Origin: Hemibagrus wyckioides
Taxonomy: Eukaryota; Chordata; Actinopteri; Siluriformes; Bagridae
Assembly (NCBI RefSeq): GCF_019097595.1
Contig: NC_080722.1
Coordinates: forward strand, 20,423,630 to 20,487,629
DNA length: 64,000 nt
Reading direction: 5' to 3'
The notes beneath the pieces are model-generated. The model did not search any database, was not told where the DNA came from, and saw nothing but the letters and a program-made list of their open reading frames with translations. Below, piece after piece: positions 1 to 60,268 of the stretch (its first letter is position 1; every line of letters begins with the position of its first letter). A program made the translations under genes and the position numbers.

Positions 1-164
1 ATGAACAGTAACATGGTCTGTGCTACACTGAGAGATGAATATACTTCCTCAGGGATCACACTTTTCTGGTCCATTTCAGAATAGATGCCAACATTCAAAA
101 AGTTTCAGATTTAAGTCTATCAAAACAAAACAATTTAGAATTATATTTAGACATTGCATTTGTG

Positions 165-330
165 GATTCCTAATTTGTCCCAAATGTAATCAAACAGGAT
201 TCCAAGAACTTTGACGTACATCGATTATCATACCATACCGACAGCTCATCTCCGGCTTTGAGAGTTTGACAGCAGCAGTAGATAATACTTCCTCAACATT
301 AAAAAGTCACCTGATTCTTTCTGTATCACT
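165..330 (-). promoter_or_regulatory. Inverted copy of deaminase-family promoter module
   Basis: Read on the minus strand, this stretch matches the upstream region of genes I and III: a GAGGAAGTATT-like start, a CTGCTGTCAA segment, then GTACGTCAAAGTTCTTGGAATCC. It contains TTCCAAGAA (200-208), a perfect TTC-N3-GAA palindrome of the STAT/GAS type, and TGACGTAC (212-219), a CRE-like half site. No exon follows on the minus strand inside the window, so its gene is lost or lies left of base 1. Regulatory function is inferred from motif and position only. Confidence 0.5.
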
Positions 331-899
331 GCACGCAAAATTCACGAGTAATAAACTGCATTTGCTCTCATTTCTCAGTGCTTACATCTACACCATATTA
401 CTTATATCTTCTCTTATTACATTAATCATATTTGTTTGGCTTTCTCTTTGTCTCGCATTTTGTTGCATGCCAGGCTAAGATTAGAGCTCAACCTCACTAA
501 TGCCCACACCCACATTCCAAAATGTTTCTGAGAAATGTCTCCTTTCTCAGAAGAGTGCCGGATGTGATAGCAGCAATAGGAGAGCAAATCTGTAGAAAAT
601 GGTGGAATAATTCCGTCAATAATCCTGTAATAGTGCTGAAATACTGCTGTATTAAAGCTGTAATAATAATGTCAATAAGGGTGTAATAACAGTGTAATTT
701 ATAACATTAACGTTATTTGTAGCAGTAATAACAAACAATGAATTTTACAAAGATTGCGAAGGCAACAATAGTTGTTGTATGCTAGTGCACCCTACTTTAT
801 ATCTGTTTCTGTGTGTGTATGTTCATTACACACACACTCATTTAACTTCTCTCCAAAGTAAAATGGTCCTGTGACTGGCTCCACGTAATATTTGAGCAA

Positions 900-1105
900 C
901 TACTGTTGTTTTCATAAAAACCACATACAGTTAGCTAAGATTCATTCACTTTATCCACTTTATTCTTGCTAGTGTTACAGTGAATAACATGTTTTTGGTA
1001 GAAAGCTCACTCAGACCCAGAGAGAATATGCACAATTCCACAAAGACATAAACCTGAGCTCAGGATCGAATCTGAGCGCTAAGCGCTGTTATAGTACAAA
1101 TATCT
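900..1105 (-). mobile_element. SINE-like fragment (tRNA-type head, minus strand)
   Basis: The reverse complement resembles the head of the tRNA-derived SINE common in fish: a box-B-like GATTCGATCC, then a stretch matching the usual 'gtttgcatgttctccc' region in degenerate form. Related pieces lie at about 54485-54660 and 56480-56660 (intron 2 of gene III), so it predates the duplication. Old and diverged. Confidence 0.5.
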
Positions 1106-1679
1106 ACTGTCATTTCATTAGTCTTATTTGTTTTGCTTTCTCTTTGTCTCGCATATTGATGCATGCCAGGCTAAGATCACAGCTTAACCTCACTAATACC
1201 CACACCCACATTCCAAAATGTTGTGAAAAGTTTCCAAGAAATGTTATAACAGTCAATAATCCTATAATAGTGCTGAAATACTATGTGATGTATTAATGTT
1301 GTAATAATGATGACAATAAGCGTGTAATAATTATCTTATTTACCATATAGTAATGCTCTATTAATTGTCTTATAATGCTGTAGAAATGATCAATAATGAC
1401 ATAAGAATGTTATAAGACATGACTCAAAGACAGACTGAGAAACATTTGATGATGTCCTAGAGGAGCAGCGCATGAATTGATGCTAGGGCTGCAACTGTAA
1501 TAACACAATTTCTCCTTTGGTTAGTTTGACCTGTATGAGCTGAATGGGTTCTATGGGGTGGATTTCTGCGATGTAAATTCAACAAACACCACATATACTG
1601 TATATTTACTATATTAGCAAAAGAATGTGCTTGATGATCAAACTATTATAAGAACCTGCTTTACTCTTCTGGGAAAGCT

Positions 1680-2465
1680 TTAACAACATTTTAGAATTTG
1701 GGTGTGGGCATTGCTGAGTTTAAGCACTGTTGTCACACCTAGTGCTCATCAAAATGAAAGTGAAGCAAATAAGACAAATGTAAGGAGAATAGATATAAGA
1801 AATATAGTGTAGCCGTAAGTACTGTAAAAAGAGTAGATGTCTTTTGTTACTTTCACCCTGGTCTCTTTGATTCAAGCTAAATCCATATTAATGTGGAAAA
1901 ACTTAGAAAATGCATATTTATCTCTATGCTTTGGCTATCCATCCACACCAAAATGGCACGTTTCTCTACTGATTTAGAAAAAATAAAACGCTCTCCCATG
2001 TGAATCAATGTTCCATAGTGTTGTTAAATATTAAAGCCACTTTCTACAATGTTCAGATTGTTAATGTTCACATCATTCTTAATGTTCACTTGCATTGACA
2101 TTGCAACATCAGTTCATCAGAAAGTAAATAAATGCCTGATGGTAATGATGCAGGCCAAAGCTTCTTAGGTTTTTAGACTTAGAAGAGTATGAACAAGCAA
2201 TTTATGTAAAATGTTTGAAAACGCCAGCGTAGACAGAAAGCATTTTAAAGCAAAAATCTACCCGGTTATTGTGAACAAAGCCTCAGGTGTGTAGTAAAGA
2301 ACAGAACAGAATCAGGTGATATTTCAGTATTGAGGAAGTATTCTCCACTTCTGCTGTCAACCTCTCACAGCAAAAGATGAACTGTTGGTATGGTAATAAG
2401 TGATGAAAGATCTTGGAATTGTAGTTTAACTACATCACAGATAACATGGGATCCACAAATGCATT
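1680..2465 (+). repeat. Diverged promoter/upstream module, inverted relative to 165-560
   Basis: This stretch aligns, at roughly 75-80 percent by eye, to the reverse complement of about 165-560. Shared landmarks are GGGTGTGGGCATT (about 1690), the GATATAAG...ATAT-GTGTAG segment (about 1785), GAGGAAGTATTCTCC (about 2332), GGTATGGTAATAA (about 2388) and ATCCACAAATGC. It is followed at 2865-3040 by a second direct copy of the same module, which serves gene I. I read it as the leftover promoter of a lost gene copy. Confidence 0.5.
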
Positions 2466-2864
2466 TACATTTACATTCATGACATTTGGAGGACACCATT
2501 ATTTATAGCCACTTATAGAAGTGCTTTGAAGACCCTATCAAAAAACCTCATGCTGATACTGATCATACTGGTTTATGAGTTCAGGGGCTAAGAGTAACAT
2601 CAGTCTAAAAACATGGTGGAGATGGATAGTACAATGTTTAAAACACACGCACACTAATAAACAAAGTGTTCATTTCACTACTTGGTGAAGAGCTAGGTCT
2701 TCAGTCATTGTTTGATGAAGACATTATGTGCAAATGTCATTCAAATTCATATCTCTTAATACAGAATTAAAATGAAAATGTAGTATGACTGGTCAGCATT
2801 TTCTTCTGATCTTATGTTGTTAGCAACTAAAAGTAAAACTTGACACTGTTGTGTGATAAATACA

Positions 2865-3040
2865 TAAATAAATATGGAGGAAGCATTCTCTAATGCTGCT
2901 AGAGATGATTACTGCAGCTGGAGATGAGCCATTGGTGGTGGTTGTTGTTGTTTGGTATGACGTGATGTACGTCAAAGTTCTTGGAATCCAGTTTCACTTC
3001 ATGGGGAATAAAAAGGAACGGACAACTGTAGACGGCATTT
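2865..3040 (+). promoter_or_regulatory. Putative promoter of deaminase-like gene I
   Basis: It lies 77-250 bases upstream of the gene I start codon. It contains GTACGTCA (2967-2974, CRE-like), TTCTTGGAA (2978-2986, a perfect TTC-N3-GAA GAS-type site) and AATAAAAAGG (3007-3016, TATA-like). A transcription start near 3035-3045 would fit. The same order and spacing recur before gene III, where the GAS-like site is changed to TACTTGGAA. No transcript evidence is available here. Confidence 0.5.
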
Positions 3041-3116
3041 CTTAAAGATACTTAAGAAATATAATATCTATATAATATATTTTAGAAGAGGGCTGGGACA
3101 GAAGAAGTACAGGGAA

Positions 3117-3311
3117 ATGTCTATTCCAGATAACCCTGAAGGAGAGAAAGAAATTTCTGAAGACACTATGAAAATCAGTAGTAGTAGTACTGTAGTACTG
3201 ATGGACTTGGATACAGAAACACCAATGCATATCCCATTGGCTTCGTGTCCCAGCCCTCAAGAAAGGGGAGTGGGATTTATGGTGAGATTCCATTCTTTAC
3301 TTTTCAGACAG

Positions 3312-3350
<39 letters not shown>

Positions 3351-5186
3351 AAGTTCATGGTATAACGAGTAAATGTGTGATAAGGACAGAATTGAAATTG
3401 AAAGTTAAAACAATCAAGTAAAGATAGCGAGAAACAGGAGGGGAGAGAGAAGGAGAGAAGGAATGAAGGGGGCTTAAGAAACAATTTTTCAGCTAAGCTG
3501 TAAATAAAATGTTTTGTTCTGTTTCTTTTTTTAATCAGAATTCTATAAAACGGTGTTCCACTTCTTTCCCACCAGAGGGCGGTCCAACATCACCGTAAGC
3601 TCAACAATGTCATATATATATATATATATATATAACATTATTGTTATTACATAAGAATAAACAACAATCCTGCCTACATCTAACTGTCTAACTTTAATTA
3701 TTTCTTTTTGCATGTTTATCTTAGTATCTCAAAGTAATTGCAAATGAATCTAAATTCATTCTGTGTGTGTGTGTGTGTGTGTGTGTCTGTTTGTGATGAT
3801 GATTTTGTGATTGTTCCTCAGTAAAAAAGAAAAAAACAGCAATGAAAGTTGTGAGATAAAGTGAGTATTATAATGATAAAAATCCAAATTACATAGAATA
3901 ACCAAAATATTATAAATGATATTGATGATTATTTCAATATATTACATGAGGCTCTAGTTCTGATCTGTCTGTCTATTTATTAAGAATAAAACCTTTTGTT
4001 TTCTTACAGAACTGCTCCATCAACAAACCCAGAAAGGACAGAAGGCCAGAAGAATAAAGTTGAATGGAATTTCATCAATGTAAATAATTATACAGACTGT
4101 ATTAAGATGTCTGATAAAGAGGTTTTAGATCATATTAAACAGAATATTAAGAAAACATCAAATTATCAAAAAAAAAAATTTAAAAAATTGTTTTTGCAAA
4201 TGCTCAAAAAAGAAAAAAGAAAAAAAAGCCTTTTTATGGGAAAAAAATATAGGCAACGAGCATTTGCTATTTTAAAATTGAATAATAAGTCAAATAATAA
4301 AGAAAAAACAGAAGTAATACCTCCGTTTTATCCAAAGAGAAAAAGACATAGTGAGGACTTCATTATTGAAGAAATTAAAGAAAGGAATGATATTTCTGAA
4401 GTTTGGATATACACAACGAATAGTCCTTGTTTAGGTAGAAAACCTAATCCTCCCTGTATGTCTAAATTAATTAATTTTGCAAAAAGTCATCTGATTAAAA
4501 TCTATATTGGCTTCTCAAATTATTATATCTTTAACAAAAACATGTATCGTTTTATTCAAAATCAGGAAGATGATGAAACGAGAAACTGGAATTCTGACCA
4601 TAAATTTCAGGTTCAGTTCAATGTAAGAGAATTCAAATATAATTGTGAAGAAAATAAGAAAATAAAAGACAATAACTTAATTACAGCAGCCTATAATATT
4701 ATAATGAACATTCTTTCTAAATATTCAGGCTTAGAAAAGACGTATAAAGATTGGCATCAGACAGGATCAGAAACATTAGCAGAGCTTGAGTCCACACTGA
4801 GAGAAGAGATGAAGAAAAGGAGAGAGATGAAAATAAAAGACAATTGCCTGACTGCAACCTGTAAAATTATAATGAATATACCTTCTAAATATTTAGGATT
4901 AGAAAAGATGTATAAAGATTGGCATCAGACAGGATCAGAAATATTAGCAGAGCTTGAGTCCAAACTGAGAGAAGAGATGGAAAGGAGAGAGATGATGGAG
5001 AGCTCTGATGAAGAGTTCAGCGAGATTACAGATGAGTGTAAGAAATGGTGGACTCTGAGCATAGATGAAAATCTCAACAGACATGTAGTTCCATCCATTT
5101 TAGAGAAAATCCATGACTTTTGTCCTAATCTGGAGTTTTTCCAGGTTGATTTGGAGGATTGCTTTAATTTGGCTAATGAGGAATAA
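3117..5186 (+). CDS. Cytidine-deaminase-like protein, gene I (3 exons)
   Basis: Inferred exons are 3117-3281, 3539-3594 and 4010-5186, with GT/AG junctions and phases 0 and 2, giving 465 residues. Gene III has the same structure, which supports the model. Exon 1 is short, polar and ends with SCPSPQE. Exon 3 carries RHSEDFIIEEI (His187, Glu189), then a strand ending NSPC (Cys214) and PPCM (Cys223). H-x-E plus PC-x8-C is the zinc and proton-shuttle layout of the deaminase fold, flanked by predicted beta strands (VWIYTTNSPC; IKIYIGFSNYYIF). No signal peptide or membrane segment is seen, so it is probably intracellular. The C-terminal third has a 57-residue tandem duplication (4659-4829 and 4830-4999) rich in Lys and Glu. 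The coding sequence is very A-rich. Substrate (DNA, RNA or nucleotide) is unknown. Relation to the AID/APOBEC-like radiation of ray-finned fish is my inference. Confidence 0.7.
3314..3349. repeat. (TG)n microsatellite in intron 1 of gene I
   Basis: A run of about 18 TG units 32 bases after the exon 1 donor. Gene III has a similar TG run at the same place in its first intron (about 55876-55907), an additional sign of common descent. Further short TA and TG runs sit in intron 2 (3610-3632, 3761-3786). Confidence 0.95.
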
Positions 5187-5201
5187 TTGGAATACAATTG
5201 G

Positions 5202-5207
5202 AATAAA
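5202..5207 (+). terminator. Polyadenylation signal of gene I
   Basis: AATAAA, 15 bases after the gene I stop codon. It is the first such signal downstream and is well placed, although the 3' UTR would be very short. Confidence 0.5.
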
Positions 5208-5275
5208 TCTCGCTAATGCTAACTTGTCCCTTTGTGATTTATTGTTTCTTTAATATTTCCTGTTTCTAGTTCTTA

Positions 5276-5303
5276 ACACACACACACACACACACACACA
5301 CAA

Positions 5304-5350
<47 letters not shown>

Positions 5351-5360
5351 ACACACACAG
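5276..5360. repeat. Compound (CA)n-(TA)n-(CA)n microsatellite
   Basis: CA run about 5276-5301, TA run about 5309-5347, then a short CA run. A shorter version is at 59407-59455 in copy B. Confidence 0.95.
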
Positions 5361-6132
5361 TTTTGGTAGCATAAACCAAAGTTTCCAAAGTTCCAGAATC
5401 ATGAATCATGACTTTGATAGAGAAAAAAAGAGTGCTTTCTTTTGAGCTATGATAAATATTCTTCAAACTCTGTTTTTAATTTTTTATCACAGGTAGGAAT
5501 ACGTTTGCTTCACCAGTCTGAATAAAAAGAATGCATTTGATAAGTCCAACAATAGATGGTGTAATTTTAAAAAGTCATTTGAGGCACAAGCTTCGACCGA
5601 TATTAAAATGATATAATTACATTGTCCTAAAATTCCTTTATGACATTGCCACTGAAAATAATACAAGAAGGATGCTTAAACAGGGAAATGACATTTAATT
5701 GTGTAATCTCAGAGACCTTAAATGTACTTGAATTTCAATCTAAATTCATTCATCAGAAAAGATCTCTGCAGCTATGTATGAATCATAAATGCACACAACT
5801 GTACAATAAATTTAGGTTAGAAATCAATCATGTTCATGGAACTGACTGCATGTTTAACACTCTGAACATTAGTTAACTAATTTATATCAGTAATTTTTGT
5901 AACAGATTAAATGACCTTAAAAGGCAAGAGAAAAGAAAACTGTGTGATAGTTAATGTGCATGGGGAGTTATAGTTAATGGGGAAATCCGAGTTCTCAGGA
6001 TTTTCAATATGCCAACAGACCAAAGCAGGAGTTTTTTGGATTCCACAAGGGAAAGTCTTTAGAAGCCAGCCATATTGTCTGTCCCAGGTGAATTGTGGGG
6101 TTCCAGGGCTCATTGCCAGACCCAGTGACACT

Positions 6133-11696: not shown

Positions 11697-12542
11697 ATGT
11701 CACACAATCGGAAACTCGCTTATCCTTCACCGTCATCCTCGCCAACTAAGAAGAAATCTAAACCAGCAATCGCGGCAGGCCGAGCGGATATGGAGGACAA
11801 CATGGCGGCCACTATAAAGCGGTTTGAGGATATTCTAAAAACTGAATTAGCAGCAATGCACACTGAATTTGTCTCTCACATGACTATAATCCAGAATATG
11901 TGCTCTAAAGTTGAGTTTTTAACCAGGGAACAGAGGGAACAAAAGAGAGTAATCAACGAACACACTAGCCGTCTGGATGCCCTCGAGCAACAATTGACTG
12001 ATCTTCAAGACCGCAGCAGACGTAATAATCTCCGGCTACTGGGATTACCTGAAGGGGCAGAAAAAGATGACCCAATTGGCTTTCTGAGGCGGTCACTGCC
12101 GATCTGGATCCCATCACTTGCGGGTAAAGATATCGAGATCAAACGTGCACACCGTGTTTACTCCAGAGCTTCAACTGATCATTCTGAACCGCGAGTGTAT
12201 CTCCTCAAGCTGTTACGCTATAACGACAGGAATTTGATTTTAAATGAAGCAAGACATCACGGCCCCGTAACAACGAGTGACGGCGCGATGCTGAGCTTCT
12301 TCCCCGACTTCTCTCCTGTGACGGCAAAGAAGCGGAGCTCCTTCGGTACAATACGGAGGGAATTGAAAGAGGCAGGCCTGCAGACCTTTCTTCAGTATCC
12401 AGCTACGCTGAGGATCGTCATGAAACACGGCGAGACCAAATTAATGCATTCCCCGGATGAAGCGCGTCAATTCCTAAGCTCGATCCCCGGTCCTCACTCT
12501 CCTAGGATGGACGTGGCACAAAGGCTAGATAATACTGAGTGA
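11697..12542 (+). CDS. L1-like ORF1 RNA-binding/chaperone protein, 281 residues
   Basis: Complete reading frame from ATG. It has a basic Ser/Pro/Lys-rich N-terminus, then a coiled coil of roughly residues 60-110 with heptad-like Leu spacing, then the conserved SRRNNLRLLGLPEG motif that starts the RNA-recognition-like domain of L1 ORF1 proteins. Later come the RAHRV segment and a C-terminal domain containing DFSPVTAKKR. The family protein binds element RNA as a trimer and aids target-primed reverse transcription. This frame is intact while its partner ORF2 is not. It sits 134 bases inside the element's 5' end. Confidence 0.9.
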   Translation: MSHNRKLAYPSPSSSPTKKKSKPAIAAGRADMEDNMAATIKRFEDILKTELAAMHTEFVSHMTIIQNMCSKVEFLTREQREQKRVINEHTSRLDALEQQLTDLQDRSRRNNLRLLGLPEGAEKDDPIGFLRRSLPIWIPSLAGKDIEIKRAHRVYSRASTDHSEPRVYLLKLLRYNDRNLILNEARHHGPVTTSDGAMLSFFPDFSPVTAKKRSSFGTIRRELKEAGLQTFLQYPATLRIVMKHGETKLMHSPDEARQFLSSIPGPHSPRMDVAQRLDNTE

Positions 12543-13035: not shown

Positions 13036-16000
13036 ATGAAGATACTGAGTTGTACTGTTAATGGTTTAAATGGCCCCCATAAGGAAGATTGACATTGCTT
13101 TAATCCAGGAAGCTCATTTGCAGAAGGATGATGTTCACAGATGCAATAATAAATACTACGAGGTGGTTTCTTTTGCTGCGACTGACAATAAATCTAAAGG
13201 TGTTTTGATAATCGTTAGAAGACATTTGAATATTTCCAGACATTTCTTCTAGACAGAAGTGGTGATAATGCTGGAAGAATAGCTTATATGAAGTCCATGG
13301 TTGGGAATAGGAAGTTAGCATTTCTCTCAGTTTACGCACCATGTAGCCCAGATCCAACTTTCTTCTCCGAATTATCTACCTATTTCACTGATCTAGCAGA
13401 CTTTGAGGTAGTAATGGGTGCAGTTATGAATGCTGTAATGTCCAATGACCTTGATAGATCCGGTGACAATTTTTCTTACTCCCAGATTTTTCTTACACAC
13501 TGAACACCTTAACCAATGCATAACCTCTTTTTCACTAGTAGATCTATGGCGATTATTCAACCCCTCCCAAAAAACATATACTTTTTTCTCAGCTAGACAC
13601 AAATCATATTCACGGATTGACTACATTTTTGCTTCCTCTTCCTTAACTTCAATGATATGTGAAGTTGACATCTCTCCTCTATCGCTCTCGGACCATAGCA
13701 CTAATTTCTTGAAACTTTCAATTATCCAGCGTCCTTCACGAGCACCCAGATGGCGCTTTAATACCAATCTATTAAAAGATGAGTCTTTTTGTGATCAATT
13801 CAGAAGTAAACTACGTGAATTTATCGCCATCAATAAAGGCTCGGTAGACGACCCACGGATATTGTGGGAGGCGACAAAGGGCTTTATCAGGAATTTTTCA
13901 ATTTCATATGCTTCCCATTGCCGGAAAATTCATCGAAAGAAAATTTTTGACCTGGAATCCAATCTCCGATCATTAGAACAGACAAACCAGCACACTTTTT
14001 CGGAGTGTACGGCAGTTAAAATTGAAACTATTAGGAAAGAACTTAATTTATTATATAGAGGCAGAGCCAAATTTCTTATTCAAAGATCCAGACAAAATTA
14101 TTACTTTCAAGGTAGCAGACCTAGCCATTTACTAGCTCTAAGACTACGTAATAGTGAAAAATTTGCTAATATTACAGCGGTGAAATCTCATACCGATGAG
14201 GTTCTGACTGACCAGAAGAGCATAAATAACACTTTTCGCTCTTTTTATTGTGAACTATACAGCTCCAACTCTAAATGTGAACCCACATCCTACACTTCCT
14301 TTTTATCTTCTCTTAATCTTCCACATCTGTCAGATTCAGATTCAGAGTTTTTAGCTAGACCTTTATCACTTATTGAACTAGAGTCTTCGATCAAAGTTAT
14401 GAGCAAAGGGAAATCCCCAGGCCTAGATAGCATACCAGTTGAGTTTTATTTGACCTTCCGGTCCGATTTGGGGCCACTTATGTTACTTATGATGCAATAT
14501 TCGATAGATCAAGGATCCTTTCCACAAAACATGAATATGGCCATTATATCTCTTCTGTTAAAAAAAGATAAAGAATCTACTTTATGTTCTAGTTACCACC
14601 CACTCTCTCTATTAGGTACAGATGTTAAAATTTATGCAAAGGTTTTATCCTGCCACTTAGAAGGCTTTATGTCTAAACTTGTCAATTGTGACCAAACAGG
14701 GTTTATTAAATCTCGCTCTGCTTCAGACAATCTGCGTAGACTTCTTCACATAATCTCCTCATCCGAACAGTCGATTTCTCCCTCTGCTATTCTCTCTTTA
14801 GATGCAATGAAAGCTTTTGATCATTTGGAGTGGAACTATTTATGGGCAGTGCTAGATCACTTAGGATTTAGCTCTAACTTTATAAACATGATTAAAATTC
14901 TTTATGTTAATCCCTCAGCCACCATTCTTACTGGCCAGATAAGTTCACAATCATTCCTAATTGGAAGAGGCGCCCGTCAGGGCTGCCCTCTTTCACCTCT
15001 ACTGTTTGCCTTGTCTCTAGAACCTCTTGCTCAAGCTGTGCGTCAGTCAGAACTTATACTTCCTATATTGGTTAGGAACACTCCACATCATATATCTTTA
15101 TTTGCAGATGACATATTGCTATTTTTAGACAATCCAGTTCTATCAGTCCCCCACGTTTTAAATTTATTTAATCAGTTCAGTAATCTGTCAGGGTACAAAA
15201 TTAATTGGACAAAGTCATGTCTGCTTCCTCTCAATTCTCGGGTTGGACCTGCAGCATTCTCTGGTTTTATTCCGGTGGTGCATTCCTTTACATACTTAGG
15301 TGTAGATATCTATCCGTCCCTGCGAGATATTGTCTCAAAAAATTTGAATAACAACCTGACTAGAATCACCTCAGATCTCGCAAATTGGACGCATCTTCCT
15401 ACTTCTTTCCATGCAAGGATATCTGTTATTAAAATGAACATCCTTCCTCGTGTAAATTTTTATTCCTCCATGATTCCTTTACCCCCACCTGCTGGCTATT
15501 GGAAAAAACTTAACTCAGTAGTCTCCCACTATATTTGGAATGGTAAACGCCCCAGAATCAAATTATCCACTCTACAGCGCAGCAGATCAGATGGGGGCTG
15601 GTCCTTTCCAAATTTTAAATTATACGCTGACTCCTTCACTCTCCATGCACTCTCAGCCTGGTTTAAGCCAAATGTGTCAACTTCATGGTGGACTATTGAA
15701 GAATCTCTTGTTCTCCCTCACAATATAGAGCATTTGGTTTTTGCTGGTGTCTCTCTTAGACAATGTAAACTACGCTTTGGCCCCATCATAACACATTTTA
15801 TCTCCACTTGAAGAACGGTGACCAGGAAGATAGACCCAAACGTGAAGTGGCATCGCCATTCACCTTTGTTTCATAATAATAATTTCTTATCAGGTAAAAA
15901 CCCATTTTACTGTCCACAATGGATTAAATGCAAAGTGAATTCCTTTGGTGACATTTTTGATGACAAAGGTTTGAAATCGTTTCAAGATATTAAGGCCCTC

Positions 16001-22431: not shown

Positions 22432-25400
22432 ATGCCGGAAATGACCAGTCCTATGGAAGGTCAGGACAGAAGTGCTGGCTTCATGAGTGGTAATGTTTTT
22501 TTATTATTATTATTATTATCATTATTAAAAACTATTACATGGGTAAAATATGAATTTATTATGTATAGGGCTGAACTTTTTCTGATTCGGGACAGGGCCT
22601 GAGGTGTTATTAATTACATGTTGGGTCTGTTTTTTTTTTTTCAGCTGGAGTGTTTTATCCAACCTTACATCCTCTGTATGAAGGTCATCATCTTCTGCAG
22701 AAAAGGGAGCGCAAACTGGTAATGAATCAAATAAAGTTCTGCTAGAATAGCAGACATCTGGCTGGTTTTATTACAGTCATTCTGTGCTCACGAATCAAGT
22801 ATTTATCCTAATTCCTTACAGATTATAATCACGGACCCAGATGACTGCGATCGAGACATGATGGCCGAGCTCTATGGAGTAAAAATGTCGGCTTTACTGA
22901 CGACACCTCCTAAAAGGCCTGAATGCAGCATCGCTGTGAAGGATCCTGTACCCCCGAGAACTACACCCCCAAAGGAGGCGGAGCCGAACACTGCCCCTGC
23001 TTCAGAGGTGAATACTGAGCTGGACAATTTCACAGTGTACTACAAAAATACTACTACACAGGAAGAAAGAAACAAATCCAGCTGATTTAGTGGTGTTGTG
23101 TGTAATATTACTTTATTTCAGTTTAGATACATTATGATGAACATTACATTGATCCAGTGTGTGTTTTCCCTCAGACCCGATCACAGAAAAAGACCGGGGA
23201 ACCGGTCAGATTCTTCATTCCCCTGACGGAAGAAGAAAAAGAGGAGGCAAAGAAAGCCAACATCGTTTTTGGTGATGTCTTGTCCGACCACCTGACACTT
23301 ACAGGGGGTGACATTGTGGAGGCTCCTGCCCCTCTACAAACCACACCCCCAAAGGAGGTGGAGCCAAACACTGCCCCTGCTTCAGAGGTGAATACTGAGC
23401 TGGACAATTTCACAGTGTACTCCAGCTGATTTAGTGGTGTTGTGTGTTATATTATTTCAGTTTAGATACATTATGATGAACATTACATTGATCCAGTGTG
23501 TGTTTTCCCTCAGACCCGATCACAGAAAAAGACCAGGGAACCGGTCAGATTCTTCATTCCCCTGACGGAAGAAGAAAAAGAGGAGGCAAAGAAAGCAAAC
23601 ATCGTTTTTGGTGATGTCTTGTCTGACCACCTGGAACTTACAGGGGGTGACATTGTGGAGGCTCCTGCCCCTGTACAAACCACACCCCCAAAGGAGGCGG
23701 AGCCAAACACTGCCCCTGCTTCAGAGGTGAATACTGAGCTGGACAATTTCACAGTGTACTCCAGCTGTTTTAGTGGTGTTGTGTGTAATATTACTTTATT
23801 TCAGTTTAGATACATTATGATGAACATTACATTGATCCAGTGTGTGTTTTCCCTCAGACCCGATCACAGAAAAAGTCCAGGGAACCGGTCAGATTCTCCA
23901 TGACGGAAGAAGAAAAAGAGAAGGCAAAGAAAGCCAACATCATTTTTGGTGATGTCTTGTCTGACCACCTGGAACTTACAGGGGGTGACATTGTGGAGGC
24001 TCCTGCCCCTCTACAAACCACACCCCCAAAGGAGGCGGAGCCAAACAACACTCTTGAGCTTGCTCCTGTTGAGGTCCAGCCCTCAGAGCTTCATCCCGCT
24101 GCCACTCCTAGTAACCAAAAAGAGAGGAGGAAGTACGATCGGGAATTCCTGCTGCGTTTACGGTTCGTCAGTGCCAGCATGTGCAGACCCGAGGGTTTTC
24201 CAGACATCCCCGGCGTCGTTCTAGACAAGGTAAACATGACCGTTAGTGACATGACGCTCTGTAGGAGCACAGTGATTTACTCAGTATGAAGTGTCAGGCT
24301 AATATATCACTTTTTATTGCCCTGGAGCAGGTCGAGGACCTGTAAGTCTCACAAAAGGAACTTCAAAACACCAGATAGTTTTATTAATTGTAACATTAAA
24401 GTCTTGAGTATCTGAGAGTTGATCAGTCTTTTATTTGGTGCATTAATTAAAAGTATAAGCCAAGCAGTTGACGAAGTCACAGCCTTTCAGTTTTAAATAA
24501 ACCTTTCAATTGTTTTTGTCGTCTCTCAGCAGTGTGATCTTAAAAAGCCAAACAAGATCATCACCCGCGTGTCTCTGAACGATGACGTGCAACTGGACAA
24601 GGCTGAGAAAGCCTGGAAGCCGGCGGCGAAGAAGTCCCGCGGCAACAAGGATGACCAGGAAATGGTCAAGACCCAGGAGCTCTTCAAGAGAGTGCGCAGT
24701 ATCTTGAATAAACTGACGCCGGAGATGTTCCAGCAGCTCATGAAACGGTTCATGGAGCTGACCATCGACACGGAGGAGAGACTTAAAGGCGTCGTGGACC
24801 TCATCTTCGAAAAAGCCATTTCTGAACCCAACTTCTCAGTCACTTATGCCAACATGTGCCGCTGCTTTGTGGGGGTGAGTCGCCACACCCAGCCTCTCGG
24901 TCCACATTTATCGGTCATGTCAAAACCTACACTTTATTCTACACATACACAAGAGCTGTTCATCTATCTATCTATACATACACAAGAGCTGTTCATCTAT
25001 CTATCTATACATACACAAGAGCTGTTCATCTATCTATCTATACACATACACAAGAGCTGTTCATCTATCTATCTATACACATACACAAGAGCTGTTCATC
25101 TATCTATCTATACACATACACAAGAGCTGTTCATCTATCCATCTATACACACACACAAGAGCTGTTCATCTATCTGTCTATACACATACACAAGAGCTGT
25201 TCATCTATCTATCTATACACATACACAAGAGCTGTTCATCTATCCATCTATACACACACACAAGAGCTGTTCATCTATCTGTCTATACACATACACAAGA
25301 GCTGTTCATCTATCTATCTATACACATACACAAGAGCTGTTCATCTATCTATCTATACACATACACAAGAGCTGTTCATCTATCCATCTATACACACACA

Positions 25401-28400
25401 CAAGAGCTGTTCATCTATCTGTCTATACACACACAAGAGCTGTTCATCTATCTATCTATACACATACACAAGAGCTGTTCATCTATCTATCTATACATAC
25501 ACAAGAGCTGTTCATCTATCTATCTATACACATACACAAGAGCTGTTCATCTATCTATCTATACACATACACAAGAGCTGTTCATCTATCCATCTATACA
25601 CACACACAAGAGCTGTTCATCTATCTATCTATACACACACAAGAGCTGTTCATCTATCTATCTATACACACACAAGAGCTGTTCATCTATCTATCTATAC
25701 ACATACACAAGAGCTGTTCATCTATCTATCTATACACACACAAGAGCTGTTCATCTATCTATCTATACACATACACAAGAGCTGTTCATCTATCTATCTG
25801 TACACATACACAAGAGCTGTTCATCTATCTATCTATACACATACACAAGAGCTGTTCATCTATCTATCTATACACATACACAAGAGCTGTTCATCTATCT
25901 ATCTATACACATACACAAGAGCTGTTCATCTATCTGTCTATACACATACACAAGAGCTGTTCATCTATCTATCTGTACACATACACAAGAGCTGTTCATC
26001 TATCTATCTATACACATACACAAGAGCTGTTCATCTATCTATCTATACACATACACAAGAGCTGTTCATCTATCTATCTATACACATACACAAGAGCTGT
26101 TCATCTATCTATCTATACACATACACAAGAGCTGTTCATGTCTTCCAGAAATTTCTACCCATATGGGGAAAACAGCAAAACTAAAGCTACATGCAAAAGG
26201 GCTGTGTTGATTTTTATGCAGGTTACTTGATAGGATGCTGTCATCGATATACCGAAGTGTCTTTTGGCTTAAAATGACATTTACGTTTGGTGACAGTAAA
26301 AAAGCACATAATCGTCTGGTTTTTAAATCATCTTTTTTTCTCCTTTGTCCAGCTGAAAGTGCCCACCTCTGACAACTCTGGAGCCACTGTGAGTTTCCAC
26401 AGACTGCTGCTGAATCGCTGCCAGAAAGAGTTTGAGAAGGACAAAGGCGATGACGAGATCTTTCAGCAGAAGCAGAAGGAGCTGGATGCTGCCACAGAGG
26501 TGCTGCACACACACCATCTCTCTATCTCACACACTCGCGCACGTCTTTTAACTACGCAATGTGGATTTATAGGAACTCTTCAGATCTTTTATATGTAAAG
26601 CATGTTTAAGACCATGGAGAAAATAAGCTGTGTATGTAAATCTTACACTGATAATGTCGTAACCAGCGTGACCACCGTGACTGATGTTTTCCTGCAGGAG
26701 GAAGTTGAGCAGCGGCTAAACGAAGCCCGCCGCCGTTCCCTCGGCAACATCAAATTCATCGGAGAGCTGTTTAAGCTGAAGATGGTGAAGGAGCAGATCA
26801 TGCACGTCTGCATCGTCAAGCTGCTGAAGAACCACGAGGAGAGCCTCGAGGTTCTCTGCAGACTCCTGTCCACCATCGGCAAGAACCTGGACCTCGAGGA
26901 GTCAAAGGTAACTAGTGCTCACACACACACACACACACACACAAACCCTGCTGAATTCTCTTTAGTCATGTTAACTTCAGCACTGCTGCAGTGTGTTAAT
27001 TGTGTGTGTGTGTGTGTGTGTGTGTTTTATAGCCCTGTATGGATCAGTACTTCCAACAAATGGAGCAGATAGTAAAGGAGAGAAAAACATCTTCAAGGAT
27101 CCGCTTCATGCTGCAAGACGTGTTGGACCTGAGAAAAGTACATTTCATTTTCTTTATTTGACTTTAGACATTTTAAAAGAGACTCTCTCTCACTTCATCA
27201 CTTTACCTTTAATTGTCCTACTTTTTTAAGCACTTTTGTTGTTCAAATACATTTATTTTGTTGATCATGCTCAGAGCAGCACTTTCCCCACTTGCCATAT
27301 TTTTAACCTGGTGTTTTGAAGAGCTTTTTCTTTAGTGTTTCTATAAAAGATTAGGGCTGTTTTGTGTTGTGTCATAAGAAAGGGTGTAATAATTCACGTT
27401 ATACTGGGTGTAAAAACATGGTGTAAACAGTAGAGGAGGCACTGAATCCGCATGCAGGATCGTTATCAGACCAGATCCAAGCCAGATAATGGTGGATCAG
27501 ATATCTGAGTGAGCCAGAAGGATTTGAGTTTGTTCACATTCTTCTGCCTCTGATCCTCCTGCTCTTTTCCGTGTGTACAGAATAACTGGGTTCCCCGGCG
27601 AGGTGACCAGGGCCCTAAAACCATTGGCCAGATCCATAAAGATGCAGAACTGGAGGAACAAAGAGAGCTGATTAAAGTGCAGCAGCTGCTTCAGTCCAAG
27701 AAAAACTCGTGTCAAGAAAGACGAGGCAAAATGAATCACCCTCAGGACGAGGGCTGGAACGCGGTACCCAACAGGACCATGAAGCAGCCCATCGACACGC
27801 CCCGCCTCACCGAGGTACTGAACACCTGAGTGCAAAACAACAAAACCATCAATTTATGACGAGTTTGTTTGAGAAATTGAAATGAACGTAATGCTCATAG
27901 ACCATAAAGTGGGTTAAGGTCAGTTTGGTGTGTGTGTGTGTGTGTGTGTGTATTTATTTCTTTATTTATTTTATTGTCACAGCCTGATGCAGGACAGTCG
28001 GCCATGTGCACCCTGAACCGATTCTCAGTCCTTCATCAGTCAGGACCTTCATCCACATCCTGCTCATCCTCATTGGACTCTAAGTGCAGAGTTCCCCAGG
28101 ACCAGGGGCTGGACAGAAAAGGTATCTGCAAACCGGCCCTGAGTGAGGAGGAGGTGGAGAAGAAAACCACCGCCATCATCGAGGAGTACCTGCACATCAA
28201 CGACCTGAAGGTGAAAATGACTGCAAGTGAAATTCTGTACTGCAGTCGCTTTAAAGCCAGAAGTGTTATGTTCAAACTCTTTCTCTCTCTGTCCTGTAGG
28301 AGGCAGTGCAGTGTGTAGAGGAGCTGAACAGTGCGTCTGTGCTCTTCGTCTTCGTACGTAACGCCGTGGAGTTGACGCTCGAACGCAGCACCGTCGCCCG

Positions 28401-46245: not shown

Positions 46246-46321
46246 TATCTTATCTTATCTTATCTTATCTTATCTTATCTTATCTTATCTTATCTTATCT
46301 TATCTTATCTTATCTTATCTT
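46246..46321. repeat. (TATCT)n microsatellite
   Basis: About 15 uninterrupted TATCT units immediately next to the Tc1-like right end. Confidence 0.95.
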
Positions 46322-49309
46322 TATAACTGTTCTATAAAAACCCCAGAATGAGTTAAGATATTTTCACTTGTGCAGAGGTCCAGTGTTGTCATGTAAACTA
46401 AAACCTATGGTTACAATCTTACACATGATTTGAAATATATTAAAAGAACTATAGGGGTATAAATAAAAAGAGTCGATCAGAGGGACATATTCATTGTGTA
46501 ATGTTTTCTAAATATGATACTGAAAAACTACAAGTTTTGTAAACAAGTGTTTATTGTTGATTATGTACTTATAACATGTTTATGACTATACAATGAGTTC
46601 ATTATGAACTGTGGATCACTTTTCATCGCTTTGACATAAAAAGCACTGAATAAAACCTCAGCATTCAAAAATCATGAATTCTTTTCTCCCATAAACCCAA
46701 CCTTCAACAAAACTCTGTAACTACTGCTCACAGGTTTATATACTGTTTTTAAAACTAATCTTGATATGTTTATATGTTTTTCCCTCATTTCCAGTTTTCC
46801 ATCCTGTTCCTGAGTGATGTTCTTCATAGGTTGCCTCTGGGTTCTTCGGTTCTCTCCATCTCCCAACACCAGGACATTTTCAGCATGTTCTCCTCGACTC
46901 TGCAGGACACAGCACTTACTGGAGATGAACATGGACCTGAATCACAAGAAAGTGGAACACTGCACTGAAAAGTGATGACCTGATTCAAATCAGCACAATT
47001 CAACACAAATAAATTATTAGCATCATAATTATTTGCAAAAGTAAATAAACTAAAAGACATTGCTGATGTGTATTTAATACACTACAGTGTTCCTGTGTGA
47101 CTGAATCATGAATCATTACAAACAATTCCGGACATCAGCTTCTATTTAAACAGCGCTATCTTTAGTTCTAAAAAATGTTTTTGGACTTCCTGCAAAAATA
47201 TCAATGAAATATAACCTAGCATTCCTGATTCATTCCTCTACCAGACGCTGCAGTAGATTCTGTGTAACAAAGCAGTAATAACCCTGTGTTATAAAGATAT
47301 ATTGCAATAAGGGTGTTTTTCAGCTCGTTGTGTTATAAAAGATGACAAGACAATCTACAGGAAGCAGTGCTGGACTGAGATAGTGATGGACCTCAGACAT
47401 CTGAACATCTCTCTCTTCTCTCTGTTGTGGTCTGGGAAGCACTTCTGCTCCCTGAAGGCCAACACAGAGAGAATGATGAGGAGCTTCTTCCCACAGGATG
47501 TTCAGTTCTGGTCCTCAACCGTGACAATAGTACACACAACCTCAGCCTGGATTTACAGAGCATACATCACACAAACATCTGCACACATCTGCACTGTATT
47601 CAAAATAACATCATACTGTTTCTGCCACCAGTCTCTGTATTGCTTCTATTATATTTTTATATTTTCTCCTCATATTTTTTTTCCTTTCCTACCTGTATAG
47701 AAGTAAAGTCTGAATTATTTAAATTCTATTTATTTTTTATTTATTTATTTATTTTTATATCACAGACATTCAAAAAATCATTTGACAGTCCACTGTCCTG
47801 TGTATGGTTGTGTATATGAACAATAAAAGATGGATTTGAATTTGATCTGTAACCTTCTGTGTTGCAGCTTGGAAAAAGTCCACTCAGTAATAAGAATATT
47901 AATATACAATAATGAATTATATTTTTTGTTGTTTTTTGTGCCTGTGAGTTTGTAGGACGATTCTGAAGTTGGAGGAGAAAATGAAATGGGAGTTTTTTGA
48001 CATACCCTAACTGTCTTGAACCGGAATACACAGTACACACAGAGCTAGACAAGATGAGCATTTGACGTTCATTTTGGAAGTTTTCATCTGTCAGGCTAGC
48101 GCATTTCAGCTTCCATTTACCATGGATTTGACTGGACTTTAGAAAATTAATTCCTTTTTTTCTTAGCTGACCATTTCTCAATATGATAACATATTTGTAG
48201 TTTACAGTAAAAAAAAAAAAAGTGCAAATAAACATTAATAAACTGTTAATGTTTTTGACAGTAATTTACTGTTATTATACAAAACAATGATCACTCAGAA
48301 TGAATGCTGTAATTTTTTTTCCTTCTCATTCTTGATTTCTGTCATTTATGTTTTATGATTCCTGTGGCTTTGGTTTTCTGTTAACTCTTCTATCCATTAG
48401 CTACCCCCATTTTAAAGAGACCGCAGGGGGAGGGAGCGGGGGACGTTGAATTGATATGTTTGGATGTTAGTTATGCTGCTATACGAAAATAATCAGAATT
48501 ACACTACAGTGTGAAGTCGGTTAATCCTTACTTAATGGAGACGAATACTTTGAATACAGCTTCACACTTACAGAAGCTGGTGAAGGAACCATTATTATCA
48601 GGGCACACAGTGTCCCAAAACTCCATCACACATATGGGTTTCTCCTTGTTGTTTATTGTCACGCCTGAAAATCCATATTTAATACTTACCATATTTGTAT
48701 ATTTCTTTTCTTACATTTACATTTATGACATTTGTCTTATGACCTTATCCAGAGTGACATACAACAGTGCTTTGAAGTCTCTATCAGTGAATACATCAAC
48801 ACTGGTTCACTTAGGATACCATCAGCCTAAAACTCAGCCTAAAGCTATAGCACAATTATTTTTCTTGAGCTCTGTTCTACTGAGTCAAAGTCACTCAATG
48901 TCCTTGAGGAACTAATGGAGGAGTGGAGGTAGAAATTCAGTGATTGTTGAACTCACACTCCTCATTAGTGTATGACTTATTTGAATGTGAGTCACGGTAA
49001 CATTTCATCATAGTACATACAGATGTCTGTCATTTTCATTTGTAAAATAAATGAATATAATAAAAAAGATGAGATTTTGAGTTTCATTCACAAACCCACA
49101 TACGGTACCCCTGAGTTACTTCCTGCTATTACTTATCAAGTAGCAGCTAGCAGCTATAAATAATTATTCCCTCAACAGCCTGAAGACTCTCCTATGTGTG
49201 AAAGTAAAAAGCTACACCTTTTAGTTACAACAGAAAACACTTCCACTATGTTCCTTCAATAAATATTAAATCGTACACCGTGCATGTATAACTTAATCTC
49301 TTTATCAAA
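46322..49309. other. Intergenic region, repeat debris, no supportable gene
   Basis: The stretch 47340-47840 resembles a fish LINE 3' end (arginine/serine-poor frame, then GAACAATAAAAGATGG...). Short open frames at 46672, 47383, 47741 and 48511 have no known domain, no splice context and poor codon bias. Confidence 0.6.
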
Positions 49310-49862
49310 GACTTTAAGTATGGAGTATGGGATTAAAATGTACATTGGCTTCACTAAGTTATATATATTTATTTAAAACATTGCTGATTTTATCAATAAC
49401 AGCAAACAATTACAAGATTCTTGGAAGAGAATAATTGAATATTATAATTTGGGTCTTCAAAATCAATTTCAATTTGAATTCAATATTTTAGAAAAATGTA
49501 AATCATGCATGGAAGATATTCTTCCTGATAAATGTCGTGTAGATTATAAAAATATAGATGAACATCTTCATGAATGCAAAGAGTCGGTTCAGACAGGAAG
49601 AACTTATGAAGAGTGGAAACAGACAGGAAGAGAAACAGCAGAAACACTCATGTTAAGCCTTAAAGGTATCAAGGAGATAAGAGAGAGCGTAGATAATGAT
49701 TTTTTTGAAAAGTTTAAATTGCTGTTTAATGATTTGTGGGACAGAAACTTAGATGAAATATTCAGTGATATTATCAGCAAAAAGGTGGTTCTACTCTATT
49801 TAGAAGGCATGGAGAGAATTGAACATTTCCCTAAGTTTTTCCAAATTAACCCTTATAACTAA
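49310..49862 (+). pseudogene. Deaminase-family copy II, C-terminal fragment
   Basis: The frame YGIKMYIGFTKLYIFI aligns with residues after the catalytic core of gene III (YGIKMYIAFSTFYVFI). A TAA at 49374-49376 replaces the AAA codon of gene III. The same frame then runs on from ATG 49449 to the stop at 49860 (IIEYYN..., GMERIEHFPKFF at the end, matching KIQAIEHYPVFI in gene III). The first two exons and the region with H-x-E and PC-x8-C are missing. Upstream, no promoter module is seen. A truncated pseudogene; the 137-residue downstream frame has no known function. Confidence 0.8.
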
Positions 49863-55640: not shown

Positions 55641-55671
55641 ATCATTACTTGCATTTCTATCTTATTTAGCT

Positions 55672-55871
55672 ATGTTAGAAGAGGGCTGGGGCACTTCTGA
55701 ACACGAGCAAACAATTACTTCAGTCATCTCTGAAGGAGAGAAAGAAAGAAAGAAATCCCAGGAGGACTTGGATACAGAGACATCGCTGTCTATGCCATCG
55801 GTTCTGTGTCCCAGCCCTCAAGAACTGGGAGTCAAAATCATGGTGAGATTTCATTTTTTACTTTTCATACA

Positions 55872-55908
<37 letters not shown>

Positions 55909-57835
55909 GTGGAAGGGAATGAATTTCATGGAGGGTTGTGTGAAAAAACTGTCTCTGTGTGTCTTTGTTTGAATCAGACTGACCAACATTCCATGAACAC
56001 CTCTCCTTGTCCACCAGAGGCATCAAGGTAAGTCTAATACACAACTGTTTGATGGTGGCTTTGCATTAGAATAATAATATAACTCATATGAACTCATGTC
56101 CTAGACCAAGATCATAACAAGCACACACTGTTAAACACACCCAGAAACCTTTTGGTGAAGGAATCGTGTAAGAAACAATGTTAAAAAATAGTACACATTA
56201 TTATTAACTTTATTTATAATATTAATGTTATTTGTAGAAGTAATAATAAATAATGCTTTCTTAACAAAAATTGCAAAGCGACATGAAGGCAACAACTTAA
56301 TGTACTAGTGCACCCTGTCTGTGTGTGTGTGTGTGTGTGTGTCTGTGTGTGTATTGAACACACACACACACACACATTTTACTTCTCTCCAAATTAAAAT
56401 GGTCCTGTCACCTGTTCCATGTAATATTTGAGCAACTATTGTTGTTATAATTGTGTTTTTTAAATAATATTTAAATACCATATACAGTTAGCTAAGATTC
56501 ATTCACTTCATCCATTTTATTCTTGCTTGTGTTACAGCGAGTAACATGCTTTTGGTAGAAATCTCACTCAGACACAGAGAGAATATGTACAATTCCACAA
56601 AGACATTAACCTGAGCTCAGGATCGAATCTGAGAGCTAAGCGCTGTTATAGTACAAATATTTACTGACAGTATTTTAATTCTATTTCTATCTATTTCTAT
56701 TCTTGTCATCACAAATTAAAATAAGCACTTCACTGAACTAAGCAGACGTTTTACATTTTAATTTACAGCGGCTCAAAAATGTCTACAGTTTATGCCTGTA
56801 CTTTTCCAACTGTGTCAAGCTACATCTGACATACAGCTGTGTCTGACCCTTTGCATACATTAGATATGAATATCCAATGCCCTAAGGATTGAAGTCAATA
56901 ATGTAGTGTGCTTGTATTCACTAATCCGTGTATTGTGTTGTATGTTCATGTTTTGTAGATCTGCTCTGGGAGATACACCTTCACCTGACCAGAAGAGTAA
57001 TATATGTAATAAAGATAAATATATGTTTATGATATTAAACATAAATGTACTGGAATGTACTAGTCAGCATACATTGTATATATATGAGAATATAAAGGAA
57101 GTAACTTTGAAGTATATTCCATCTATTTTAGAAACTTCTAGTTATGAAAATGAAATATATAAATACACACCATATATTGAAGATATTAAAATGTGTTACG
57201 ATACATTAAAAAAAATCAGAATAGATCCTAATGAAAAGAGACGCCAATATGCAGTTGCATATTTATGTAAGAAAGATGGATCTGTACTTATGAGAGGACC
57301 ATTTTCCCGAAGACACAGACATAGTGAAGATTTCATTATTGAAGAAATTTCTGAATTGGTAAAAAAAAATGAGATCATTCATTACTCTAAAATTTTGATT
57401 TACACAGTAAATAGTCCCTGTATAGGGAGAAAAGGTCAAATTCCTTGTATGTGTAAATTAATTGATTTATCAGTCAAATTAAGTAAGAACTATGGAATTA
57501 AAATGTATATTGCCTTCAGTACATTTTATGTATTTATCAAAAACATTGCTGATATTATTGGAAACAGTAAAGAACTGGAAGACGATTGGATGAAAATTAT
57601 TGAATATTATAATTTACAGCAAGTTAAGTTTTCTGTTACATTCCCAAAATTTGAGAAAATGAACATATCAAAAAAAAAAATTCCAACTGACACTGTTATA
57701 AATATATGTAAGAAGGTGTGGACTAAAGAATTAGGCAAACAAATCACTGAAATTATTAATGAACAGGTTGTTCGATTCTACCTGAACAAGATACAGGCCA
57801 TTGAACATTATCCCGTGTTTATCCCATTAGCCTAA
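55672..57835 (+). CDS. Cytidine-deaminase-like protein, gene III (3 exons)
   Basis: Inferred exons are 55672-55842, 55978-56027 and 56959-57835, with GT/AG junctions and phases 0 and 2, giving 365 residues. The start MLEEGWGTSEHE has in-frame sequence up to the donor. Exon 1 ends with LCPSPQELGVKIM, like gene I. In exon 3 the fold reads in order: strand pair RRQYAVAYLCKK and SVLMRGPF (about 168-185); helix RHSEDFIIEEI with His195 and Glu197; strand ILIYTVNSPC with Cys228; IPCMCKL with Cys237; strand GIKMYIAFSTFYVF. This is a complete zinc-deaminase core (H-x-E, PC-x8-C). The C-terminus is helical and ends in KIQAIEHYPVFIPLA. It lacks the 57-residue tandem duplication of gene I. No signal peptide or membrane segment. 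Intron 2 contains the SINE-bearing piece found in block A1. Catalytic activity and substrate are unknown. Confidence 0.75.
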
Positions 57836-58139: not shown

Positions 58140-58254
58140 TGAGGATGGGTTCCCTTCTGAGCCTGGTTCCTCTCTAGGTTTCTTCCTCATATGATCTCAG
58201 GGAGTTTTTTCTCACCACAGTCGCCTCAGGCTTGCTCATTGCTCATTGTTAAAA
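58140..58254 (+). mobile_element. LINE/SINE-tail fragment
   Basis: GAGGATGGGTTCCCTTCTGA, TCTGGTTCCTCTCTAGGT-like sequence and GGGAGTTTTTTCTCACC match a dispersed fish repeat also present near 51110. It ends where block B2 begins, so it may mark the breakpoint. Confidence 0.55.
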
Positions 58255-60268
58255 GGACAGAATTGAAACTGAAAGTTAAAACAATCAAGTAAAGATAGCG
58301 AGAAACAGGAGGGGAGAGAGAAGGAGAGAAGGAATGAAGGGGGCTTAAGAAACAATTTTTCAGTTAAGCTGTAAATAAAATGTTTTGTTCTGTTTCTTTT
58401 TTTAATCAGGATTCTATGAAACCGTGTTCCACTTCTTTACCACCAGAGGTTAAGAATAAGCAACAATCCTGCCTACATCTAACTGTCTAACTTTAATTAT
58501 TTCTTTTTGCATGTTTATCTTAGTATCTCAAAGTAATTGCAAATGAATCTAAATTCATTCTGTGTGTGTGTGTGTGATGATGATGATGATGATGATTTTG
58601 TGATTGTTCCTCAGTAAAAATCAGCAATGAAAGTTGTGAGATAAAGTGAGTATTATAATGATAAAAATCCAAATTACATAGAATAACCAAATTATTATAA
58701 ATGATATTGATGATTATTTCAATATATTACATGAGGCTCTAGTTCTGATCTGTCTGTCTATTTATTAAGAATAAAACCTTTTGTTTTCTTACAGAACTGC
58801 TCCATCAACAAACCCAGAAAGGACAGAAGGCCAGAAGAATAAAGTTGAATGGAATTTCATCAATGTAAATAATTATACAGTCTGTATTAAGATGTCTGAT
58901 AAAGAGGTTTTAGATCATATTAAACAGAATTCTAAAAAAAACATTGAATTATAGAAAAGATTTAAAAGATACATTTTTGCTAATTAAAGAAATTAAAGAA
59001 AGGAATAATATTTCTGAAGTTTGGATATACACAACGAATAGTCCTTGTTTAGGTAGAAAATCTCATCTTCCCTGTATGTTTAATTTAATTAATTTAGTAA
59101 TAAGTCATCAGATTAAAATGAATATTGTCTTCTTAAATTATTATATCTTTAACAAAAACTTGTATCATTTTATTCAAAATCTGGAAGATGATGAAATGAG
59201 AGACTGGAATTCTGACCATAAATTTCAGGTTCAGTTCAATATAACAGAATTCATATATAATTGTGAATAAAATGAGAAAATAAAAGACAATAACTTAATT
59301 ACAGCAGCCTATAATATTATAATGAACATTCTTTCTAAATATTCAGGCTTAGAATTCAGGCTTTGTGATTTATTGTTTCTTTAATATTTCCTGTTTCTAG
59401 TTTTTAACACACACACACACACACACACAAGTTATATATATATATATATATATATTTGGTAGCATAAACCAAAGTTTCCAAAGTTCCAGAATCATGAATC
59501 ATGACTTTGATAGAGAAAAAAAGATTGCTTTCTTTTGAGCTATGATAAATATTCTTCAAACTCTGTTTTTAATTTTTTATCACATTTAGGAATACGTTTG
59601 CTTCACCAGTCTGAATAAAAAGAATGCATTTGATAAGTCCAACAATAGATGACGCAATTTAGTAACACTTACTAAATACTAGAATACTAGAGTACTAGAA
59701 TTTTAAAAAGTCATTCGAGGCACAAGCTTCGACCGATATTAAAATTATATAATTACATTGTCCTAAAATTCCTTTATGACATTGCCACTGAAAATAATAC
59801 AAGAAGGATGCTTAAACAGGGAAATGACATTTAATTGTGTAATCTCAGAGACCTTAAGTGTACTTGAATTTCAATCTAAATTCATTCATCAGAAAAGATC
59901 TCTGCAGCTATGTATGAATCATAAATGCACACAACTGTACAATAAATCTAGGTTAGAAATCAAACATGTGCATGGAACTGACTGCATGTTTTCCACTCTG
60001 AACATTAGTTAACTAATTTATATCAGTAATTTTTGCAACAGATTAAATGACCTTAAAAGGCAAGAGAAAAGAAAACTGTGTGATAGTTAATGTGCATGGG
60101 GAGTTATAGTTAATGGGGAAATCCGAGTTCTCAGGATTTTCAATATGCCAACAGACCAAAGCAGGAGTTTTTTGGATTCCACAAGGGAAAGTCTTTAGAG
60201 GCCAGCCATATTGTCTGTCCCAGGTGAATTGTGGGGTTCCAGGGCTCATTGCCAGATCCAGTGACATA
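58255..60268. repeat. Segmental duplication block B2 (partner of 3381-6132)
   Basis: It starts with AAGGACAGAATTGAAA-type sequence inside the former intron 1 of gene I and runs to the same 3' flank as copy A, ending at 60268. Internal deletions relative to copy A fall in deaminase exon 3 (two) and in the microsatellites. Confidence 0.9.
58388..59363 (+). pseudogene. Deaminase-family copy IV, active site deleted
   Basis: Exon-2-like (about 58411-58450, donor lost) and exon-3-like (from 58800, acceptor TTCTTACAG kept) sequence nearly identical to gene I. Exon 3 has lost about 170 bases between the KTSN-type helix and KEIKERNN, including the RHSED block; the join also shifts the frame. The stretch 58944-59270 keeps the later NSPCLGRKSHLPCM motif. 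A second deletion of about 500 bases removes the C-terminus including the tandem duplication. Exon 1 and the promoter are absent. Clearly non-functional. Confidence 0.9.

Follow-up and report, generated by a model that had tools for sequence, protein, structure and literature searches.

A 64,000-nt stretch of the genome of the catfish Hemibagrus wyckioides (contig NC_080722.1 of RefSeq assembly GCF_019097595.1, positions 20,423,630 to 20,487,629 of the forward strand; hereafter the window) was analyzed with a focus on a deaminase-like gene, gene I, and its relatives in the genome. Gene I was predicted to comprise three exons (coordinates in Table 1), with GT/AG boundaries, that join in frame to encode 465 residues and end with a stop codon at 5184-5186, as a preliminary description made from the sequence letters had proposed. 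The numbering given there for H187, E189, C214 and C223 proved correct, as did the S-P-C-x8-C spacing, the motif reading NSPC-x8-C. The exon-3 frame was likewise open in four close copies, and the region of exon 1 (2900-3300) was identical to the corresponding region of a second gene of the window, gene II (55480-55870), at 256 of 358 ungapped positions. Judged from its sequence, gene I is a real member of a known, little-studied family, and its assignment to SNAD3 as an AID/APOBEC-type cytidine deaminase is made with high confidence.

This assignment is based on profile and fold comparisons. The core of gene I (4173-4655) matched the Pfam family SNAD3 (PF18749) with 48.2 bits (E=1.2e-12, cut-off 27), and two other cuts of the core scored 42.7 and 47.7 bits. 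The same segment also passed the APOBEC_N (28.6 bits, cut-off 25) and NAD1 (27.7 bits, cut-off 27) models, both below the SNAD3 score. Shuffled versions of this core matched no deaminase family in any of ten trials, which together with the E-value indicates that the match is not due to chance. A structure model of gene I, of low confidence, adopted an AID/APOBEC fold and had APOBEC3H and APOBEC3C as its best matches in the PDB. The model of exon 3, numbered as the residue number minus 74, showed strands 84-90 and 99-103, helix 114-122, strand 128-135, helix 149-160 and strand 163-168; H113 and E115 begin one helix and C149 begins the following one, so that the secondary-structure positions of the motif residues are compatible with a deaminase site. 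The earlier proposal of an AID/APOBEC-like deaminase was thus borne out by profile and fold. By contrast, the clade that had been thought possibly undescribed, and could not be placed in a named family, had already been described: it corresponds to SNAD3, presented in the available text of two publications as a clade of secreted AID/APOBEC-like deaminases found only in ray-finned fishes (PMC11004436, PMC8201067).

Several observations count against this reading of gene I. Using the full 465-residue product as a query, only the general APOBEC_N model passed (26.0 bits, cut-off 25), and SNAD3 was listed in the Pfam scan neither for the full-length protein nor for the whole of exon 3. Gene I and its close copies L016-L019 were also missing from the hits of a genome scan with the SNAD3 profile, and the overall confidence of the structure models was low (pLDDT 49.5 and 43.6). 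The loss of SNAD3 with the long gene I query probably resulted from HMMER composition filters acting on a lysine-rich sequence. A search of PDB sequences with exon 3 returned no deaminase.

Other deaminase families were considered and rejected. Membership in the classical AID/APOBEC1-3 group was discarded since the clade-specific models remained below cut-off (APOBEC3 at best 23.4 against 27 bits, AID 13.7 against 27.3), only the general APOBEC_N model passing, and since gene I carries TNSPC-x8-C as against the HxE-xn-PCxxC motif with SWS given in the available text of PMC8201067. NAD1 (PF18778), narrowly passed on segment 4173-4655 yet 20 bits under SNAD3, scored 21.7 bits on a shorter cut and was unlisted on a longer one, with SNAD3 higher in each of the three. 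Bacterial toxins of the XOO_2897 type are HxE plus PC-C deaminases and share these motifs with gene I; their model (PF14440) stayed far under its cut-off of 27 bits, reaching no more than 14.9 for gene I and 16.7 for locus L004 (see below).

The C-terminal extension that had been noted as unusual does exist, and is partly made of a tandemly duplicated unit (YKDWHQTGSETLAELESTL in its first copy). It is however not peculiar to gene I, as the module is common to other copies and hence not an oddity of one gene. The unit, with the pattern [YC]xxW...L, is present twice in I, L016 and L017 and once in L018, L019, V, L002, IV and L004; no copy of it was found in gene II. Matches of the tail to known domains were all below threshold (for instance TINF2_N 17.3 against 29.4 bits, PARP_reg 14.6 against 26.8, DUF7073 15.4 against 27).

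Relatives of gene I form an array. Queries of the genome (789.7 Mb) with the protein of gene I and with that of gene II identified 18 and 16 stretches, respectively, all on contig C13, where the SNAD3 profile scan also placed its four hits. Merging of stretches by hand gave 15 loci, a lower bound in which near-identical copies may be unmerged haplotypes: 14 lie within about 332 kb (20.265-20.597 Mb) and one is an outlier at 19.597 Mb. Nine loci (I, L016-L019, II, V (L001), L002 and, in its second domain, L004) have an exon open over the entire domain with both motifs, in frames of 292 to 505 codons; the remaining ones (III, IV and the loci at 20.313, 20.355, 20.419 and 20.588 Mb) are all fragmentary. 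The HxE motif and both Cys are kept in all nine open-domain loci while other domain positions change fast, a count that is partly circular because the motifs served to define intactness. The spliced product of gene II, of 365 amino acids, scored 69.7 bits with SNAD3. In pseudogene III the HSE region is deleted along with much the greater part of the tail, and no exon 1 was found for it; a query with the exon-1 protein likewise detected none near L017, L018 and L019, within the stretches retrieved. L016 has the same sequence as gene I both in the domain and in the stretch preceding it, and could represent either a recent duplication or a haplotype left unmerged. The SNAD3 match of L017 extends beyond the domain, to profile position 238 of 379. 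In L004 (706-2223; C13, about 20.371 Mb), a single 505-codon frame joins half a SNAD3-like domain, with HSE and without PC-C (14.5 bits, below cut-off), to a full domain with NSPC-x7-C (31.6 bits); by these matches L004 is a chimaera inside the SNAD3 array. A stop-bearing fragment of the IV type, with domain and tail, was seen three times along the array (C13 20418681, window position 49269 and C13 20587518), a sign of repeated segmental duplication. Ahead of the units of gene I and gene II lies a repeated block (window positions 1-1570 and 53589-55133, 97.7% identity), of which 944-1570 also matches L005 (99.2% identity).

Table 1. Coordinates of SNAD3-related features in the window.
Feature	Position	Strand	Remarks
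TTCTTGGAA	2978..2986	+	GAS/STAT-type candidate site; putative function
AGTTTCACTTC	2990..3000	+	ISRE/IRF-like candidate box; putative function
AATAAAAAGG	3007..3016	+	TATA-like box just before gene I exon 1
Gene I exon 1	3117..3281	+	55 codons; without hydrophobic signal sequence
Gene I exon 2	3539..3594	+	56 bases, from splice sites and frame; gene II counterpart has 50 bases
Gene I exon 3	4010..5186	+	Open frame; entire deaminase domain and C-terminal tail
Gene I H-S-E motif (H187-E189)	4347..4355	+	Residue 113 in frame from 4011
Gene I N-S-P-C-x8-C (C214, C223)	4419..4457	+	Motif position in exon 3 frame
Gene I tail unit 1 (YKDWHQTGSETLAELESTL)	4658..4830	+	86.7% DNA identity to unit 2
Gene I tail unit 2	4829..4995	+	Tandem duplicate of unit 1
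Fragment IV	49269..49859	+	C-terminal part of domain and tail; in-frame stop at 49374
Gene II exon 1	55672..55842	+	
Gene II exon 2	55978..56027	+	
Gene II exon 3	56959..57835	+	SNAD3 domain, shortened tail
Pseudogene III	58247..60266	+	Broken duplicate of gene I 3376-6130; frame broken

The role that we consider most likely for gene I, with somewhat better than even confidence, is that of an intracellular, immune-induced cytidine deaminase directed against viruses or retroelements; the full mechanism is held with less confidence than this, and much less than the family placement. H187, C214 and C223 would hold a zinc ion and E189 would shuttle protons, allowing the enzyme to turn cytosine into uracil in single-stranded viral or retroelement nucleic acid inside the cell. 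The helical tail may be a module for binding or oligomerisation, interferon/STAT signals would act on the promoter, and the fast change of the domain and of the stretch preceding it could be the outcome of conflict with antagonists from viruses or retroelements. On this view the locus would correspond in fish to the APOBEC3 cluster of mammals, having arisen from a different clade of deaminases.

Immune induction was suggested by promoter-like boxes. TTCTTGGAA precedes four of the five first exons found (I, L033, L005 and L006), with TACTTGGAA in its place at gene II, and AGTTTCACTTC precedes all five (I, L033, II, L005 and L006) in the stretches searched. The window contains 31 TTCNNNGAA sites and, counting both strands, four AGTTTCNNTTC boxes; the two kinds are paired within 60 bp only at gene I, and AATAAAAAGG occurs twice on the forward strand (3007 and 55610), each time just before the first exon of a SNAD3-family gene. 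As these patterns were picked after the sequence had been seen, and the names GAS/STAT for TTCTTGGAA and ISRE/IRF for AGTTTCACTTC are those we take to apply, the immune promoter is a lead only.

An intracellular location is inferred from the lack of a hydrophobic signal at the predicted N-terminus. By hydropathy, no signal peptide was found in exon 1, which is an exon prediction only: the most hydrophobic 11 residues among the first 70 had Kyte-Doolittle means as low as 1.02 (gene I) and 0.90 (gene II). Alternatively, the enzyme could be exported to plasma or mucus, a true first exon that carries the signal peptide having been overlooked, in line with the description of the SNAD clade as secreted and with the signal peptides reported in 26 of 38 SNAD1 proteins, none being identified in the other 12, in the available text of PMC11004436. 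This we regard as improbable, given not only the low hydropathy but also the TATA-like boxes just before exon 1 of both gene I and gene II. Moreover, among the ATG-started frames of at least 18 codons in positions 1-3117, the sole strongly hydrophobic start (2893/2905) opens a frame that is read across the promoter-like boxes as far as a stop at 3043-3045, although splicing ahead of that stop is possible.

Regarding activity, a catalytically dead deaminase that binds nucleic acid would have a reported precedent in APOBEC2 and a suggested one in APOBEC4. The position that we take to be that of Trp in the APOBEC SWSPC motif is occupied by Asn in gene I. According to the available text of a 2021 review (PMC8201067), SWS is tied to polynucleotide activity, so that this substitution counts against a nucleic acid-editing enzyme; TNSPC for SWSPC and C-x8-C for the short spacing would fit an enzyme acting on free nucleosides or nucleotides, or a catalytically dead one that only binds nucleic acid. 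Such an enzyme appears no more probable than a secreted one, as HxE and both Cys persist amid fast change, subject to the circularity noted above. The available text of the same review called the catalytic activity of SNADs unknown, and that of the 2024 SNAD1 paper states that no such knowledge had been available before (PMC11004436).

The proteins of the array change unusually fast, as is common for immune genes caught up in an arms race. Gene I and pseudogene III were compared over 138 + 372 gap-free aligned bases, with ends set by hand. They differ at 28 of these 510 coding bases, corresponding to 27 nonsynonymous changes, no synonymous change and one stop, counted apart. The probability of no synonymous change in 27 is 0.0038 with a kappa of 1 and 0.0015 with the observed kappa of 1.7; omission of one codon at the alignment edge gave 25:0 (0.0024), and the domain segment alone 24:0 (0.0033). 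The domain segment (25/372 differences) also changed faster than the 1410 sites of flanks, introns and exon 2, of which 37 differ (p=0.0004), and all compared coding bases taken together gave p=0.004 against those sites. Since III is now broken, part of its change is neutral, and the excess may have arisen either in gene I or, ahead of its breakage, in III. Among gene I-type copies, pN exceeded pS in nine of ten pairs for the domain and likewise for the stretch preceding it; the remaining pair, I-L016, is identical in both. Single-pair P values were below 0.05 in 5/9 pairs before the domain and 2/9 in it, the pairs not being independent, and in the tail pN exceeded pS in 3/10 pairs. A codon model with a coarse grid of fixed omega and kappa was applied to I, L017, L018 and L019, adding III only before and in the domain and leaving out L016 and all gene II-type copies. 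It yielded an omega of 4.5 before the domain (p=0.02, uncorrected for four tests, as are the other omega values given below).

Other results of these analyses weaken the case for diversifying selection. Omega was 2.0 in the domain (p=0.10), or 1.5 without III (p=0.20), and 1.0 in the tail. Between II and V, nonsynonymous change exceeded noncoding change (16/688 against 5/1177, p=0.0003), but synonymous change was raised too (4/207), its share being as under neutrality (P=0.49), a pattern indicative of gene conversion; the same tests of II and L006 gave p=0.08 and P=0.55. In our reading, the array has been shaped both by diversifying selection and by gene conversion, though neither is proven. 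The least probable account, a decaying array that drifts under relaxed constraint while gene conversion reshuffles it, the amino-acid excess being a small-sample or conversion effect, would suit the six fragmentary loci, the tail omega and the raised synonymous change of II and V, but under relaxation alone an omega of 1 is expected, rather than 25 to 27 nonsynonymous changes with no synonymous one, and nine loci still have open exon frames.

Gene I is like SNAD3, its top-scoring family, in its HxE...PC...C zinc motif and AID/APOBEC fold, and unlike SNAD3 as described in that its predicted first exon lacks a signal sequence and one tail unit is doubled. Likeness to the mammalian APOBEC3 cluster may be seen in the array of copies, the fast protein change, the fold nearest to A3H and A3C and the chimaera of a half and a full domain; unlike APOBEC3, gene I fails the Pfam APOBEC3 model and has TNSPC-x8-C. 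Gene I is not an APOBEC3 member, and an APOBEC3-type defence role would be ascribed to it by likeness only. More broadly, we tentatively consider, as a possibility short of even, that an antiviral locus of APOBEC3 type arose independently in a fish lineage out of the SNAD3 clade, in the form of an interferon/STAT-inducible array of intracellular cytidine deaminases with diversifying selection, domain chimaeras and variable helical tails. Among the matches listed in literature searches, no paper on a SNAD3 gene array was found. Points of specialist interest are the array, the missing signal peptide in predicted exon 1, the variation among tails and the speed of protein change. The array combines several intact copies that change rapidly with a candidate immune promoter, so that a use of SNAD3 in fish akin to that of APOBEC3 in mammals becomes directly testable, as does the label "secreted" for SNAD3.

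Two scans confirmed no relatives in viral contigs, and no tRNA genes were found in the 64,000-nt window. Within the deaminase array, two stretches that we read as eIF4G-like matched the MIF4G domain (24497-24895, 60.1 bits; 26599-26931, 63.4 bits), with a long tandem repeat between them. A reverse transcriptase frame at 13439-15811 (RVT_1, 106.4 bits), with an open frame upstream (11697-12542), is probably a non-LTR element. On the reverse strand, a 389-codon open frame at 45080-46249 encodes the helix-turn-helix and DDE domains of a Tc1/Sleeping Beauty-type transposase.
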